Part shown: positions 35,149 through 41,790 of the stretch, piece after piece
Layout: each line of letters starts with the position of its first letter
Position numbering within the stretch: the first letter of the stretch is position 1
DNA from: Synechococcus sp. Tobar12-5m-g
GTDB taxonomy: Bacteria > Cyanobacteriota > Cyanobacteriia > PCC-6307 > Cyanobiaceae
Assembly: GCF_024345415.1 (NCBI RefSeq)
Contig: NZ_JAGQBB010000010.1
Location: 1 to 64,000 of the forward strand
Reading direction: 5' to 3'
DNA: 64,000 bases
The notes under the pieces: model-generated
What the model saw: only the letters and a program-made list of their open reading frames with translations
The model's database searches: none
What the model was told of the DNA's origin: nothing
Program-made: the position numbers and the translations under genes

Positions 35149-35811
35149 TCAGAGCTCCAGGCGGCGCCGCTCCTGTTGAAGCAAGCTGCGGCGGTGCTTC
35201 GCCTCCCGCAGCATTTCGCGCCCATCGCTCAGGTAGCTGTCCACGTAGCCCAGGGTGTAGCGCTCCAGTTCGGCCAGGGCGTCCTGCACCTGGCTGAGGC
35301 AGTGGTAGAGGCTGAGGCCGAACCCCTTGGCGGCGGCTGGGCAAGCCAGCGAACGAAACAGCGCCTCCACCTTCTCGAGCTTGGCCTTGCTCTGGGCGAG
35401 AAAGGCGCAGAACGACTCCATCAGGGCGTCGTCGTAGGGATCGGCGGAGAGGGCCCGCAGCTGGGCGGGGAAGGGGTTGATCACCTGGGCCAGCAACCGA
35501 TCGATCGGGGCGTAAACCTGCTGCAGCCAGGCCACCAGCTCGCCGTCCCGTGAGCGCCCGCGTCGGTGCGAAGGAGCGGCATGACCAGTGCCGACGAAGC
35601 CGGCCCGTTCCTGGTCATAGCGGCGGCGCTGCTCCACATCGCCCAGCACCGCCCAGGCGGCGTTGAGGGACAGGATCACCGTGGCATCGCCCCCGGCATC
35701 GGGATGGTGCCGCTTCACCAGGGCGCGGTAGGCCGCCTTGATGGCCGCGGCACTGGCACCGGGGGCGACCCCCAACACGGCGTAAAGCTCTGTCGTGGCG
35801 GGCGAAACCAT
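35149..35811 (-). CDS. J-domain protein
   Basis: A 220-aa protein with an N-terminal J domain (about 8-75) including LVKRHHPDAGGDATVILSL, where HPD is the DnaK-stimulating tripeptide. The rest is a helical region ending in a charged Arg/Glu segment (REMLREAKHRRSLLQQERRR), likely coiled coil. There is no Gly/Phe or zinc-finger region, so it is a class III J protein that recruits DnaK to one partner. Start at 35811 (MVSPATT) is chosen because the porin terminator ends at 35871. An ATG at 35838 is possible and would add nine residues. Confidence 0.85.
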   Translation of the reverse strand: MVSPATTELYAVLGVAPGASAAAIKAAYRALVKRHHPDAGGDATVILSLNAAWAVLGDVEQRRRYDQERAGFVGTGHAAPSHRRGRSRDGELVAWLQQVYAPIDRLLAQVINPFPAQLRALSADPYDDALMESFCAFLAQSKAKLEKVEALFRSLACPAAAKGFGLSLYHCLSQVQDALAELERYTLGYVDSYLSDGREMLREAKHRRSLLQQERRRLEL

Positions 35812-35870
35812 CAGGGAACCGAAGGGCGGATCCATCATCGCCAGGGTGGTCCATCGTTGCGCGATCACCC

Positions 35871-35898
35871 AACAGAAAGCCCCCCGTTTCCGGGGGGC
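35871..35898 (-). terminator. Terminator of porin A
   Basis: On the minus strand the sequence GCCCCCCG, tetraloop GAAA, CGGGGGGC forms an 8-bp stem followed by TTTCTGTT. It ends the transcript of the porin whose stop codon is at 35934-35936, and also forms the 3' hairpin of the Yfr1-like element described separately. Confidence 0.85.
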
Positions 35899-35942
35899 GC
35901 TGGTGTGGTGTGTGAGGAGGTCGGTGCTGAGGATCAGAACCG
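35871..35942 (-). ncRNA. Yfr1-like RNA element in porin A 3' end
   Basis: On the minus strand three parts follow each other. First is a hairpin spanning the porin stop codon (35942-35922: CGGT-T-CTGA, loop TCC, TCAG-C-ACCG, one mismatch). Second is a 23-nt unpaired stretch (35921-35899) reading ACCUCCUCACACACC and then ACACCAGC. Third is the GC-rich terminator hairpin. Yfr1, a cyanobacterial sRNA, is known to consist of two hairpins flanking an unpaired segment with the core ACUCCUCACAC. The element here has the same layout and the core with one extra C. Whether it is a separate RNA or only part of the porin mRNA cannot be told from sequence. yfr1 normally lies between guaB and trxA, which are not in this window. 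Confidence 0.5.
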
Positions 35943-37631
35943 GAAGGTGGTCTGCACCAGGCCGCCGAAGACATTGAAGTCGTCGTTGCTGCCGGTGTTC
36001 TGGCCGAGGGGACGGCTCAGGTAGAAGATCGCCGGGGTGACCGAGATGTTGTCGGAGACCCGGAAGCGATACCACCACTCCCAGACGTAGTTGCCGTCGT
36101 CGGGGGTGGTGCTGGCATCCTTGTTGGTGCCGGAAGACAACTGAGTGGCGAAGGTGCCTTGACCGACGGCCATGCCGGCGGCATTGCCTTTCGCGAACAC
36201 ATTATTCCACTGGAGACCCGCAAACCAGCTCTGGGACTGGGTGACATAAGGAGTAGAGAACTCCAGTCCGTTGCTTCTGATGTCGTTATCGGTGAGGGTG
36301 TTAATGCCCCAACCAACGCTCAGCGAGGGGATGAACCCTCCTGCCTTCTTGGGTTGCCAGTAGGCATTGACGGCGAAGTTGTTGGATTCACCGTTGGCCA
36401 GGAAGGAGCTGTTGGAGGCAGCAAAGCCCGTGCTGCGGCGGAAGTTGGTGGCTGCCTGGCCATAGCGGTAAGCCAGGGAGATGTTCCACTGGGGCGCTGT
36501 GTAGTTCAGCTGGGCCAGGAAGTTGCCGCGGGCGCAATCCGTGCCAATGCCACCTTCGCTACCAGAGCAAGTAAACGGGTTGCTCTCATATACGGTGCCC
36601 ACGTTACCTTGCTGGGCCACATAGCTGGCACCGAAGCTGAAGGCGCCTTGCCCCTTCTTGACATTCTGTTTCCAGATACCAGCCAGCAGAGAACCGGTTG
36701 CCTTGTTATAGACGCCCGGGGCACCATGGACAGAGAAATAATCAAGAATATTGCTGTTGTAAACCGAGGGGTTCACTGCCAGCGATTCGGTGTTCCGAGC
36801 TTTGGGGCCAACGATGAAGCTGAACTCCTTGCCAACGGGGAAGCGGTAGTAGAGACGATCAATACCGACACCATCGGAACCACCGAAGCCATTACTGGCT
36901 TTATCAAGCGTGGTCAGGTTGACAGGATCACCACTGCCTGCGTTGAAGGCATTGGCAAAATTCCCGGAGCGAAGACGGGTGTAGAGCAGGTCCTTGCCGG
37001 TGAAGCTGGTCAGGAAGTTCAGGCGAACGTCATAGCTGAAGGTGGTGGCACCGTTGGCCTGATTGTAGATATCAGACGTTTTACGGCCTGTGTTTGCCGG
37101 AGGCACAGAAGACAGCGAGCCATTGCGATCACCACCGGCAATGAGGGCACCCAGCACGAAGTTGGCTTCGCCCTGGAGCTTGGTGGTGGTGGAGAACTGG
37201 CTGGCTTCGAGTTCACCCACCTTGGCCTCGAGGCCATCCACCCGACCCTTGAGCACGGCGAGCTCGGCTTCGAACTCCTTCATCAGCCGACGGAGCTCAT
37301 CGGTCACCTCGGTGATCCGATCGAGGCAGGCGTTGAGGAGAGCGGCGGCTTCCCAGCGGCTCAGCGGCTGCTTGCCGCGGAAGGTGCCGTCGGGATAACC
37401 GGCTACGCAGCCATATTGCTCAACCAGGTTGGAGAGAGCCTGATAGGCCCACTCGGTGGGTTGAACATCGGAGAACTGGCTGATGCTGGTGACTTGATTC
37501 TGGCTCTTCGCGGTGGAAGGCCGGGCATACTTGTTGATGCCATCGAGATTGAGATCTGCGGCGGATGCGGCCAAGGGGCTCAAAAGCCCAAGGGCAACAG
37601 GCGCCAGCAGCAGTTGCTGGAACGGTTTCAT
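35934..37631 (-). CDS. SLH-domain outer-membrane porin A (som/OprB type)
   Basis: A 565-aa cyanobacterial major porin. Signal peptide is 1-24 (ending ASA). An S-layer homology domain at 53-107 (FSDVQPTEWAYQALSNLVEQ, then YPDGTF and LSRWEAAALLNACLDRI) binds the peptidoglycan-linked polymer. A coiled coil at about 108-143 (ELRRLMKEFEAELAVLKGRV) spans the periplasm, and an OprB-type beta-barrel from about 150 ends in the typical terminal Phe (TTFRF). These proteins let inorganic ions and small solutes through the outer membrane. Its paralogue lies directly upstream on the same strand. The mRNA start carries GGUGUGAGGAUCC before the ATG, a Yfr1-type target. Confidence 0.95.
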   Translation of the reverse strand: MKPFQQLLLAPVALGLLSPLAASAADLNLDGINKYARPSTAKSQNQVTSISQFSDVQPTEWAYQALSNLVEQYGCVAGYPDGTFRGKQPLSRWEAAALLNACLDRITEVTDELRRLMKEFEAELAVLKGRVDGLEAKVGELEASQFSTTTKLQGEANFVLGALIAGGDRNGSLSSVPPANTGRKTSDIYNQANGATTFSYDVRLNFLTSFTGKDLLYTRLRSGNFANAFNAGSGDPVNLTTLDKASNGFGGSDGVGIDRLYYRFPVGKEFSFIVGPKARNTESLAVNPSVYNSNILDYFSVHGAPGVYNKATGSLLAGIWKQNVKKGQGAFSFGASYVAQQGNVGTVYESNPFTCSGSEGGIGTDCARGNFLAQLNYTAPQWNISLAYRYGQAATNFRRSTGFAASNSSFLANGESNNFAVNAYWQPKKAGGFIPSLSVGWGINTLTDNDIRSNGLEFSTPYVTQSQSWFAGLQWNNVFAKGNAAGMAVGQGTFATQLSSGTNKDASTTPDDGNYVWEWWYRFRVSDNISVTPAIFYLSRPLGQNTGSNDDFNVFGGLVQTTFRF

Positions 37632-37635
37632 TGGA

Positions 37636-37645
37636 TCCTCACACC
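37636..37645 (-). promoter_or_regulatory. Porin A ribosome binding site with Yfr1-target sequence
   Basis: Minus-strand GGTGTGAGGA at 37645-37636, four bases before the ATG. GUGUGAGGA is the exact complement of UCCUCACAC in the Yfr1 core and also contains the Shine-Dalgarno GAGGA. Pairing there would block ribosome entry, as is established for porin mRNAs of Prochlorococcus MED4. Confidence 0.6.
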
Positions 37646-37655
37646 AATTGAGGGG

Positions 37656-37671
37656 GCTTCCATAGGGAAGC
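37656..37671 (-). other. Small hairpin in porin A 5' leader
   Basis: GCTTCC-CTAT-GGAAGC is a 6-bp stem with a 4-base loop, ending 10 bases before the Yfr1-type site. It could stabilise the leader or present the ribosome binding site. The rest of the leader up to the porin B terminator shows no promoter that I can place with confidence. Confidence 0.4.
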
Positions 37672-37810
37672 TTGGCGAAGTCTATCCGATCGAGCTTGCT
37701 TTGACCACAGCAAAACGGCGGAGTGGTGTGTTCTGGGATACCCCATTTTGGGTCCCCAAGGCCATCGGAGCAACAGTCAATCGGAGTGCCTGATCTTCAT
37801 CAAGGTGCCA

Positions 37811-37838
37811 TAAAAAAGCCACAGCCTTAAGCTGTGGC
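37811..37838 (-). terminator. Terminator of porin B
   Basis: On the minus strand GCCACAGC, loop TTAAG, GCTGTGGC is an 8-bp perfect stem followed by TTTTTTA. It lies about 110 bp after the porin B stop. The 3' UTR between stop and terminator holds a second perfect hairpin at 37891-37926. Confidence 0.9.
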
Positions 37839-37890
37839 CAAGAAAGAAGGAACTCGATGAGGGGTGCTTGGAAGGAAACGAATGAATTGA

Positions 37891-37926
37891 TTTTCGGCTG
37901 ATGGTGTGTGAGGGATCAGCCGAAAA
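37891..37926 (-). promoter_or_regulatory. Perfect 12-bp hairpin in porin B 3' UTR exposing an anti-Shine-Dalgarno loop
   Basis: The stem TTTTCGGCTGAT (37926-37915 on the minus strand) pairs perfectly with ATCAGCCGAAAA (37902-37891). The 12-nt loop reads CCCUCACACACC. The loop complements GUGUGUGAGG in the porin B 5' leader over 10 nt and the porin A leader over 8 nt (GUGUGAGG). It is too far from a T-run to be a terminator, and the real terminator follows downstream. I read it as a regulatory RNA element. Confidence 0.6.
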
Positions 37927-37946
37927 CCTTGAGGTGGCCTAAGCGA

Positions 37947-39545
37947 TCAGAACTTGAAGGTGGTCTTGAGCAGGCCGCCAAAGTTGTTCAGATCGGCCCT
38001 GAAATCAGTGCCTACATCTTGGCCCAAGGGAGCACTGAGATAGTAGATCGCAGGCGTCACGCTGATGTTGTCGGTGACCTGGAACTTGTACCACCACTCC
38101 CAGGCATATTGCCCGTCGTTGGCATCAAAGCTGGCGTCATCACCTGTTTTGGTCAGGAAGGTGGGCTGACCGACGGCCATGCCGGCAGCATTGCCCTTGA
38201 TGAACACATCGTTCCACTGCAAACCAACATACCAGGACTGGGATTGGGCGTTATCGAACGTTACGCAATCCACACCCACGCAGCTGGAGTCAATCGTGTA
38301 CTGGTTGATGCCCCAGCCTGTGCTGATTGAAGGAATCCAGCCGGAATTGGAGGGCTGCCAGTAGCCACTGACGCCAACGGAGTTGACGCTGTTAGCGAAA
38401 AGAAAACCCGTGACAGCCGTAGGGGTGCCGTTGCCTCCGTAGAGGCCAGCAACCCCATTGGGGGTGGAGTAGGTGTAAGCAACGGCAAGGCCGAAGTTGC
38501 TACCCGTGTAGGCGATCTGGGCGGTGCCGGTCTGCTGGGAGCAATCGTTGCCGATGCCGCCGCAGGTGGCGCTGTCAAGGCTTGGGCTGCCCACGTTGCC
38601 ATTGGCGGCCACGTAGTTGACACTCGCACTGAAGCCCCCGCTCTTCCACCACAGACCACCACCTGCGCCGAGGTTGAGGCTGTAGGCGCCGGGAGCACCG
38701 CCGTAGGTGAAGATGTCGAGAACGGTGTCAGCGGGGTACACGCTGGGCCAGACAGCCAGCATGTCGTCCTGACGGACCCGGGGACCGACGGTGGCGGTGA
38801 AGCTGCTGCCGATCGGGAACTGGTAGAAGAGCCGGTTGATCATGACCGAGTCAGGACCGGGAGGGCCTTCGAAGGCCACTTCCAGGGCGTTCAGGCCAAC
38901 GATGGGCTGGCCGTAGGGGCCGTCACCGAAGTTGCCGGCGCGCAGGCGGGTGCGCAGCAGGTCTTTGCCGGTGAAGCTGGTGTCGAAGTCAATCCGCAGG
39001 TCGTAGTTGAAGGCGGTGGCACCTTGAAGCTGCTGGGCCAGATCCGTGCGGGTACTGTCACCGCTGTAGGCGTTGGCACCGATCACGAAGGTGGCCTGAC
39101 CTTTCAGCTTGGTGGTGGTGGAGAACTGGTTGGCCTCCAGCTCACCCACCTTGGCCTCGAGGCCATCCACCCGGCCCTTGAGCACGGCGAGTTCGGCTTC
39201 GAACTCCTTCATCAGGCGACGGAGCTCGTCGGTCACCTCGGTGATGCGGTCGAGGCAGGCGTTGAGCAGGGCGGCGGCTTCCCAGCGGCTCAGCGGCTTC
39301 TTGCCGCGGAAGGTGCCATCGGGATAGCCAGCGACGCAGCCGTAGCGCTCCACCAGGTTGGAGAGAGCCTGGTAGGCCCACTCGGTGGGCTGAACGTCGG
39401 AGAATTGGGTGATGCTTGTGACCTGCTCCTCGGAGCCGGCGTACTTGTTGACGCCGTTGATGTTCAGCTCAGAGGCCGAAACGGCCATCGGAGCCAGCAG
39501 ACCGAGGGCTGCAGGCGCCAGCAGCAATTGCTGGAAAAGTTTCAT
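37947..39545 (-). CDS. SLH-domain outer-membrane porin B (som/OprB type)
   Basis: A 532-aa paralogue of porin A with the same parts: signal peptide 1-24, SLH domain (FSDVQPTEWAYQALSNLVER), coiled coil and OprB-type beta-barrel ending TTFKF. The SLH and coiled-coil regions are almost identical to porin A while the barrels differ strongly, pointing to a duplication followed by barrel diversification or exchange. Start at 39545 (MKLFQQLLLAPAALGLLAPM). The barrel contains several Cys pairs (for example in the region with CGGIGNDCSQQ) that might form surface disulfides. It has its own terminator, so porins A and B are separate units. Leader and 3' UTR carry the complementary motifs described. Confidence 0.95.
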   Translation of the reverse strand: MKLFQQLLLAPAALGLLAPMAVSASELNINGVNKYAGSEEQVTSITQFSDVQPTEWAYQALSNLVERYGCVAGYPDGTFRGKKPLSRWEAAALLNACLDRITEVTDELRRLMKEFEAELAVLKGRVDGLEAKVGELEANQFSTTTKLKGQATFVIGANAYSGDSTRTDLAQQLQGATAFNYDLRIDFDTSFTGKDLLRTRLRAGNFGDGPYGQPIVGLNALEVAFEGPPGPDSVMINRLFYQFPIGSSFTATVGPRVRQDDMLAVWPSVYPADTVLDIFTYGGAPGAYSLNLGAGGGLWWKSGGFSASVNYVAANGNVGSPSLDSATCGGIGNDCSQQTGTAQIAYTGSNFGLAVAYTYSTPNGVAGLYGGNGTPTAVTGFLFANSVNSVGVSGYWQPSNSGWIPSISTGWGINQYTIDSSCVGVDCVTFDNAQSQSWYVGLQWNDVFIKGNAAGMAVGQPTFLTKTGDDASFDANDGQYAWEWWYKFQVTDNISVTPAIYYLSAPLGQDVGTDFRADLNNFGGLLKTTFKF

Positions 39546-39550
39546 GGAAT

Positions 39551-39560
39551 CCTCACACAC
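39551..39560 (-). promoter_or_regulatory. Porin B ribosome binding site with Yfr1-target sequence
   Basis: Minus-strand GTGTGTGAGG at 39560-39551, followed by ATTCC and the ATG at 39545. Including the next A, the 11-nt GUGUGUGAGGA is a perfect complement of UCCUCACACAC found in the 3' end of porin A, and over 9 nt of the Yfr1 core. Confidence 0.6.
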
Positions 39561-39657
39561 GAGATGGCGCAAAGCGCACAACACCACAGTCACCCGGGCG
39601 GAACAGGGTGGCCAAGGAGGTTGTGCCAGAACGCGGAACGGCCATCGGGCGTTCAAA

Positions 39658-41790
39658 GTGTCGGGGCCCCGCGGCAAGCCCCTGGTTGCCCATCGTCTGC
39701 GCTTGCCAGTGCCCCGGAGAGCGGCGGGCTGGTGGCTGGCGCTCGGCCTGATCTGGCTCGCCTGCACCGCCGCCGACCGGCTCTGGCTCCGGCTCGACCA
39801 GCGGCTGCCGGCCTGGGATCAGGCCGAATACCTCAACAGTGCCGTCGACCATGGCCGCGCCCTGGGCCTGCTCCCGGGCGGTGGCTGGCAGGGCTGGAGC
39901 GCCCTGCTGGATCTCTCCCCCAAGATCCCGCCCCTGGCCAGCCTGGTGAACGGCACCGTGATGGCCGCCGCCGGCGACACCCCCGACCAGGCCAGCTGGG
40001 CCCTTGCCCTCTGGCAGGCGCTGCTGCTGGCCGTGGTGGCTGGCTGGGGGCGGCAGCTGGTGGGCCCGGGGTTCGGCCTGCTGGCGGCGGCTCTGGTTGG
40101 GCTCACTCCGGCGCTGGCCGCCCTGCGGGTGGATTTCACCCTCGATCTGCCGCTCACCGCCACCGCGCTGCTGGCGCTGTGGTTGCTGGGGCGCTGGGTC
40201 GCACCGGCCCCCACCGGCGGCCGCTGGAGCCAGGGGCTCGCCGCCGCGGGAGCCATCGCGGCGGCCGTGCTGGTGAAGCAGAGCGCCCTGCTCGTGCTGG
40301 TGCTCCCCTGCCTCTGGGCCGCGGCGCTGGGCCTGGGCAGCCGGGGACGGCGGCTGCAGGTGCTGGCGGCCCTGGCCCTGGTGGTGGGGGTCAGCCTTCC
40401 CTGGCTGCATCACAACTGGATCACCACCCTCGGCGGTACCAACAGGGCGGTGATCGAATCGGGGGCGCGGGAGGGGGATCCGGAGCCCTTCAGCACCGCC
40501 AGCTTGCTCTGGTACCCAAGGCTCTGGCCCGAGCAGCTCGGGATTCCCCTGCTGGGCCTCGGGGTGCTGGGGGGACTGCTGGCCTGGTTCGAGCGGCTAC
40601 GAACCGGGCCTGGGGCAAGGCTAGCAAGCGAAAACGGCGGCGAAAGCGGCCGGGGCTGGGGCTGGGTGATCGGCTGCGCCCTGGCCGGCTGGATCTGCAC
40701 CAGCCTCAGCCCCAACAAGGATCCGCGCTACATCGCCCCGGTGCTGCCCCTGCTGGTGCTGCTGCTGGGCTGGGGCTGGTGGAGCCTGCTGCGGCGCGCC
40801 CGGGGGCGCTGGGGGCTGGCGGCGGCGGCCTCGCTGCTCGGGGTCGGGCTGGCCGCGGCCGGGACCACGACGGCGGTGGAGCGAACCGGGCAGATCGAGA
40901 CCCAGCCAGGCTCGCCCCTTCCCGCCGTGCTCGCGGCGCTGCGGCAACAGGTGGGCAACCAACCCACCACCCTGATGGTGATTCCCTCGGCCGGCCCGGT
41001 CAACCAACACAACGCCACCAGCTTCGGGCGCCTCGGCGGGGGGCAGATCCTCGGCCGGGAAATCGGCAAGCGGGAGCAGGAGCAGCCCCTGGTGCTCAAC
41101 CAGGCCGATTGGGTCCTGCTGGCCAGTGGCGATCAGGGCACCAAACGGGAGGAGTCGCGGCGCCTGAGCGGGGAGGTGCGGCGGGATGGCCGTTTCCGGA
41201 TGGTTGGCAACTGGCCCTGGGACAAGGGGCGCCAGCTCGAGCTGTGGCGGCGCCGAGCCGAGGCCCCGCCAGCCCAGCGGTTTGACGGACCGTTCATCAC
41301 CTTGGCAAGGGGGCTGGAGCGGGGGCCGGCCGGGCTGGCGGCGATGTCCGATGCCATCGGCTCCCAGCACCAGCTCGATGGCCACTTTCTTTATCAACAA
41401 CGCGTCAGCGATTGGGCCCAGCAACGGCTGCGGCTGAACCGATCCGATCCCGATGCGCTCTGGAGCCTGGCGCTGCTGGCGGTGCTGCGCAACCGGCCCG
41501 CCGAAGCGGACGGCTGGTTCGCCCGGCTCGAGCAACTCGAGCGAACCAATCCCTGGCCCAGCGCCTACCGGGCCGTGGTGCTGCTGGCCGACTGGCAGGC
41601 CGGCACGGCCGCCTCCGTTGCCAAAGCCGCCTCCCTGAGGTTCGAGCAGCCCGTGCTGCCGGCCCTCGCGGATCTGGCCGGTGTCCTGCGGGGTGATCTG
41701 GGCCGGATCCAGCCGGCCAGGGAGTCCATACCCCGCGCCATCGAGGCGGTCCGCAGCGAACTGGAGGCCGCAGCGAAGCCCCGCCAGTAA
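39658..41790 (+). CDS. GT39/ArnT-like membrane glycosyltransferase A
   Basis: About 710 aa when started at the GTG at 39658 (MSGPRGKPLVAH). TTG and GTG codons a little further in are alternatives and no ribosome binding site decides. The N-terminal part has eight to twelve helices and the acidic loop LPAWDQAEYLN, where PMT/ArnT-type GT-C enzymes keep the catalytic Asp. The C-terminal 200 residues are soluble and include TPR-like helices (DALWSLALLAVLRNRPAEAD). Such enzymes move sugars from polyprenyl phosphate to lipids or proteins outside the membrane. It opens a four-gene set of polytopic proteins running to 46718 and is divergent from porin B. Confidence 0.82.
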   Translation: MSGPRGKPLVAHRLRLPVPRRAAGWWLALGLIWLACTAADRLWLRLDQRLPAWDQAEYLNSAVDHGRALGLLPGGGWQGWSALLDLSPKIPPLASLVNGTVMAAAGDTPDQASWALALWQALLLAVVAGWGRQLVGPGFGLLAAALVGLTPALAALRVDFTLDLPLTATALLALWLLGRWVAPAPTGGRWSQGLAAAGAIAAAVLVKQSALLVLVLPCLWAAALGLGSRGRRLQVLAALALVVGVSLPWLHHNWITTLGGTNRAVIESGAREGDPEPFSTASLLWYPRLWPEQLGIPLLGLGVLGGLLAWFERLRTGPGARLASENGGESGRGWGWVIGCALAGWICTSLSPNKDPRYIAPVLPLLVLLLGWGWWSLLRRARGRWGLAAAASLLGVGLAAAGTTTAVERTGQIETQPGSPLPAVLAALRQQVGNQPTTLMVIPSAGPVNQHNATSFGRLGGGQILGREIGKREQEQPLVLNQADWVLLASGDQGTKREESRRLSGEVRRDGRFRMVGNWPWDKGRQLELWRRRAEAPPAQRFDGPFITLARGLERGPAGLAAMSDAIGSQHQLDGHFLYQQRVSDWAQQRLRLNRSDPDALWSLALLAVLRNRPAEADGWFARLEQLERTNPWPSAYRAVVLLADWQAGTAASVAKAASLRFEQPVLPALADLAGVLRGDLGRIQPARESIPRAIEAVRSELEAAAKPRQ

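Follow-up and report, generated by a model that had tools for sequence, protein, structure and literature searches.

Yfr1 is an abundant RNA of cyanobacteria with nearly constitutive expression, and the tuning of its control over targets has been raised as an open question (PMC6974561). The RNA represses the Prochlorococcus MED4 porin leader PMM1121 4.7-fold when assayed in E. coli, and Yfr2 reverses this repression (PMC6778093). In MED4, Yfr2 binds strongly both to Yfr1 and to Yfr10 (PMC6778093). Lambrecht et al. describe Yfr10 as a stem whose loop holds the Yfr1 motif, with homologs that are conserved neither in place nor in structure (PMC6778093). In Vibrio, autoregulation by small RNAs from 3'UTRs is established (PMC7398697; reviewed in PMC9438474). 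The finding that we describe here is best called the presence of putative Yfr1/Yfr10-motif elements in the 3'UTRs of the porin targets of these very regulators. No prior description of such porin 3'UTR elements was found in the open-access literature, subscription papers and supplements being outside the scope of the search; this agrees with the preliminary description of the locus, which knew of none, and prior mention elsewhere is possible.

Motif elements behind two tandem porin genes

The window, a stretch of 64,000 nucleotides from Synechococcus sp. Tobar12-5m-g, contains two adjoining porin genes on the minus strand. Porin A (35934..37631; 565 aa, with an SLH domain and a beta-barrel) has orthologs in many Synechococcus and Cyanobium genomes. 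Porin B (37947..39545; 532 aa) lies immediately upstream and is 61% identical to porin A. A DnaJ-domain gene (35149-35830, minus strand) follows directly 3' of the porin A terminator.

At 35871-35942 of the minus strand, the preliminary description had proposed a Yfr1-like RNA, made up of a stop-codon hairpin, an unpaired motif and a GC-rich terminator, and by folding all three pieces are in place. The TGA of porin A is followed by TCCTCAGCACCGACCTCCTCACACACCACACCAGCGCCCCCCGGAAACGGGGGGCTTTCTG. A hairpin (35922..35942) spans this stop codon, the Yfr1-type motif CTCCTCACACACC (35907..35919) comes next, and the intrinsic terminator (35879..35898) is an 8-bp, all-GC hairpin that runs into TTTCTGTT. 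In the predicted fold, CUCCUCACACACC is unpaired and sits a few bases 5' of the terminator. The region folds better than its shuffles (z -4.6), with the terminator as the main contributor. In relatives, the motif stretch is kept at the porin 3' end and the stop-codon hairpin is not: of 23 orthologs, only 7 have the hairpin at p<0.05, and its p value in the nearest relative is 0.81. What remains of the proposed Yfr1-like element is thus a conserved, porin-linked Yfr1 core motif; the two-hairpin architecture is not supported, given a linear motif, a lack of conservation in the 5' hairpin and the absence of Rfam matches at E<=5.

The stronger of the two elements, which the preliminary description did not mention, lies about 2 kb away behind porin B. 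It is a Yfr10-type hairpin (37889..37928, minus strand), supported by folding, conservation, covariation and a covariance model (R2, below), with a perfect 14-bp stem and the loop CCCTCACACACC. Its sequence reads TTTTCGGCTGAT-CCCTCACACACC-ATCAGCCGAAAA as stem, loop and stem, the conserved motif CCCUCACACACC being part of the loop (37903..37914, minus strand), and an intrinsic terminator (37817..37839, minus strand) follows 3' of the hairpin. When motif flanks were compared with shuffled flanks, a stem around the motif was significant at p<0.01 in 22 of 27 porin B orthologs and in 1 of 25 porin A orthologs. There are therefore two forms of the motif, one presented in a loop at porin B and one linear, beside the terminator, at porin A.

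The porin B stem takes 18 distinct 8-bp versions among 23 hairpins, and the loop stays near CCUCACAC. Because MAFFT alignments placed the stems out of register, we used a model-fitted alignment to count covariation, and motif-anchored shuffles as a check. All 11 pairs of the model-fitted alignment have changed on both sides, covariation is 0.58 as against 0.19 after shuffling (0.61 and 0.25 in a cleaner set of 17), and the signal is lost when the pairing partner is slid by one base. Having been fitted to the structure, this alignment is biased towards it; the shuffle test on individual sequences is independent of it. A palindrome that acts at the DNA level was ruled out for porin B, as the stem sequence varies freely and the loop is fixed. 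Behind porin B at loci L128, L183 and L204 (genera g10 and g48), the motif CTCACAC occurs in two or three tandem copies.

Conservation and the porin leader site

As a word, the motif is unremarkable. CTCCTCACAC is expected 0.19 times per window, and genome-wide there are 19 one-mismatch copies of the Yfr1 core ACTCCTCACAC, against 22 for the reversed control. The porin-linked motif is real through its conservation, not through the word itself, since it stands behind most orthologous porins and is rare in the 3' flanks of other genes (7 of 652). These counts refer to CCTCACAC at no more than 130 nt from the stop codon, in tandem porin loci from public genomes, with the other genes drawn from the same loci. 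The motif follows 41 of 75 porins that carry the leader site described below and none of the 37 that lack it; Fisher tests on the counts give 7e-39 and 5e-10, values that are not true probabilities, as the sequences are related.

The leader site is the complement of the motif, GUGUGAGG, which in both porin leaders starts 13 bases 5' of the ATG, at the ribosome-binding site. In porin A, GTGTGAGG (37637..37644, minus strand) overlaps the Shine-Dalgarno region and is complementary to the motif as well as to the Yfr1 core; in porin B, GTGTGTGAGG (39551..39560, minus strand) is a perfect 10-bp complement of the porin B loop. Sites of the form GTGTGAGG...ATG occur seven times in the genome, three times at porins, and the control yields one site. 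The four others (G000 C16:12828, C41:5139, C43:3534 and C45:114470) are candidate non-porin targets of the Yfr1 type. The leader site recurs at a third porin of the genome (C13:49295), where a related CTCTCCACACACACC precedes the terminator, and three porins of this genome lack both the leader site and the 3' motif. Along this third porin (G000:C13:49295-50955, plus strand; loci L026-L029), protein matches switch between frames over a single long open frame, and the shifted segments contain TAG; compensating frameshifts or an assembly error are possible causes.

Freshwater and coastal Synechococcus and Cyanobium relatives keep the motif behind both porin A and porin B, and in genomes of genus g5, probably marine Synechococcus, one porin is still followed by a linear motif. 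Several genomes of genus g6 have the leader site without the 3' motif, and so do the porins examined in Prochlorococcus-like genomes. The latter show that the link between leader site and motif is not obligatory. Some picocyanobacterial porins outside the main set (L126, L131, L153) have degenerate ACTCCTCACC or CTCCTCACGC at the same 3' position.

The loop of porin B pairs over 10 bp with its own leader at -19.2 kcal/mol; among 9838 background windows, 41 do as well, some of them windows that overlap this leader. Outside the shared 8-mer, we found no compensatory changes that link the loop to the leader. When RNAduplex was run with the full-length elements against 198 ORF starts, the porin leaders were not singled out; the GC-rich terminator arms dominate these duplexes, which is why we relied on duplexes of the motif only. 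The combination of a matching leader site and a 3' element suggests, at the level of sequence, that porin messages may help to switch off their own translation.

Relation to Yfr1, Yfr10 and Yfr2

Rfam places the porin A and porin B elements in neither the Yfr1 nor the Yfr10 family: when the window and the interval 35800-39700 were scanned at E<=5, a tRNA was the only match, and nothing matched at the porins. The canonical yfr1 of this genome is the single match to RF01116 (G000:C1:98329-98385, 65 bits), so that the porin elements are indeed separate from it, as the preliminary description had held; the accession given there for Yfr1, RF00519, belongs to suhB. RF01116 finds yfr1 in 336 of 400 family genomes, and some of these (G112, G140, G161, G212, G217 and others) have two matches instead of one. 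The perfect Yfr1 core ACUCCUCACAC is absent from the window elements, which read CCUCCUCACAC at porin A and UCCCUCACAC at porin B. In this genome it occurs in canonical yfr1 only; several relatives have the exact core at porin B. A core between two hairpins, as in Yfr1, is seen in the window at porin A, with a 5' hairpin that is not conserved. Both elements lie at porin 3' ends and not between guaB and trxA, the location of yfr1.

Yfr10 is the closer comparison. Its motif in a loop on a stem is found at porin B, not at porin A, and by its architecture the porin B element is predicted to work like Yfr10. The Yfr10 of HL Prochlorococcus is encoded next to Yfr2; here the Yfr2-like RNA is on another contig. 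The preliminary description had suggested covariance searches, and these, fruitless with the Rfam models, succeeded in relatives with a custom model. This model, R2, was built from 17 porin B hairpins and run on 400 family genomes, and its 13 best matches all lie in porin 3'UTRs. Porin-adjacent matches outside the training set include those in G009, G045, G170, G047, G222, G194, G092 and G246, and the porin hairpin occurs in eight GTDB genera (g1, g10, g19, g31, g36, g38, g46 and g48), G121 included. Most of the other matches examined are in Prochlorococcus-like genomes. Four of the R2 matches are Rfam Yfr10 (RF02362) with Cyano-1 RNA (RF01701) directly downstream, and four more lie beside Cyano-1; a few fall inside genes and were taken as chance. 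We take Cyano-1 RNA to be equivalent to Yfr2, given that it neighbors Yfr10 and has a complementary 5' end. The local RF01701 RNA begins with GUGUGAGGGGU, and this 5' end is predicted to form duplexes with the porin B loop (-20.2 kcal/mol), the porin A motif (-20.3 kcal/mol) and Yfr1 (-23.1 kcal/mol).

It is conceivable, if rather speculative, that Prochlorococcus Yfr10 and the hairpins behind the porins represent one regulator in two states. In several Synechococcus and Cyanobium genera it would be part of its own target's message, forming a feedback loop; in Prochlorococcus it would stand alone beside its antagonist Yfr2, with porins that keep the target site and have no 3' element. If true, a regulatory RNA would here have moved between the 3'UTR of its target and an independent gene. 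That some Yfr10-like RNAs are hidden in the 3' ends of mRNAs may explain why they look scattered and poorly conserved.

Possible modes of action and known counterparts

We lean towards the reading that the 3'UTRs of porin A and porin B carry antisense elements of the Yfr1/Yfr10 type, which exert negative feedback on the porins, either via the porin start sites or via titration of Yfr2. Every porin transcript would include its element, and this element, released as a fragment of the 3'UTR or left in the message, would use its CCUCACAC to pair with GUGUGAGG at the porin ribosome-binding site and block translation, so that porin transcription would limit porin synthesis. Equally possible is that the element pairs with the local Yfr2 homolog and thereby frees Yfr1, which would act in the same direction. 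The possible partners of CCUCACAC would thus be the porin leaders, the local Yfr2 homolog and the same message in cis. A stable RNA, its processing and the sign of regulation are what we infer; negative feedback on the porins is the most robust inference on sign, since direct repression and Yfr2 titration both lead to it. A target message with its own Yfr1/Yfr10 recognition motif would answer the tuning question for porins, in that porin transcription would determine how much of the regulator, or of its antagonist, is present.

The elements might instead act solely as decoys that bind Yfr2 and not the porin leaders, so that porin messages release Yfr1 from Yfr2. The local Yfr2-like RNA is predicted to pair with both elements with energies (-20.2 and -20.3 kcal/mol) equal to or better than those of most leaders, in line with the strong binding of Yfr2 to Yfr1 and Yfr10 in MED4. 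We consider this unlikely as the whole explanation, as it does not account for the finding that among porins the motif is only behind those with the leader site, unless shared control by Yfr1 is responsible.

We give even less credence to a 3' motif that folds back on the ribosome-binding site of its own message with no separate small RNA. Complementarity within the same transcript extends over 8-10 bp in porin B messages and 7-10 bp in those of porin A, and no promoter-like site was recognized 5' of the elements; the search for a stand-alone promoter looked for sigma-70-like matches, and their absence is weak evidence. Such folding would have to contend with transcription-translation coupling over about 1.6 kb, and in the nearest relative the porin A motif pairs over 11 bp with the porin B leader and over only 9 bp with the leader of its own gene. 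That the elements are just structural 3' ends, a stabilising hairpin and a terminator that resemble Yfr1 by chance or shared ancestry, fits the chance-level frequency of the word in the genome and is nevertheless very improbable, as the loop is kept while the stem takes 18 versions, covariation around an invariant loop contradicts it, the hairpin recurs in eight GTDB genera and the motif is absent behind porins without the leader site.

Antisense elements that act in feedback, the reading that we favor, have counterparts in OppZ and CarZ, the autoregulatory 3'UTR small RNAs of Vibrio cholerae. In the window as in these RNAs, the element is in the 3'UTR, an intrinsic terminator follows it and it is complementary to its own message. 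Unlike OppZ and CarZ, to which they are unrelated in sequence, the putative porin elements have a motif family that also includes a free, global regulator and an antagonist. ApcZ of Synechocystis, like them, is a cyanobacterial regulatory RNA from the 3' end of an mRNA (PMC8136909), but its sequence and target are unrelated, and it has its own promoter. With Yfr1, the porin elements have in common the core CUCCUCACAC and their presumed target in the porin leaders; they differ from it in that they have no conserved 5' hairpin and no match to the model, and lie at another locus than the separate yfr1. Yfr10 (RF02362) is a separate RNA next to Yfr2, whereas the porin B hairpin is part of a porin 3'UTR and is not matched by the Rfam Yfr10 model; in both, the Yfr1 motif is presented in the loop of a stem, and the model built from the porin hairpins finds Yfr10.
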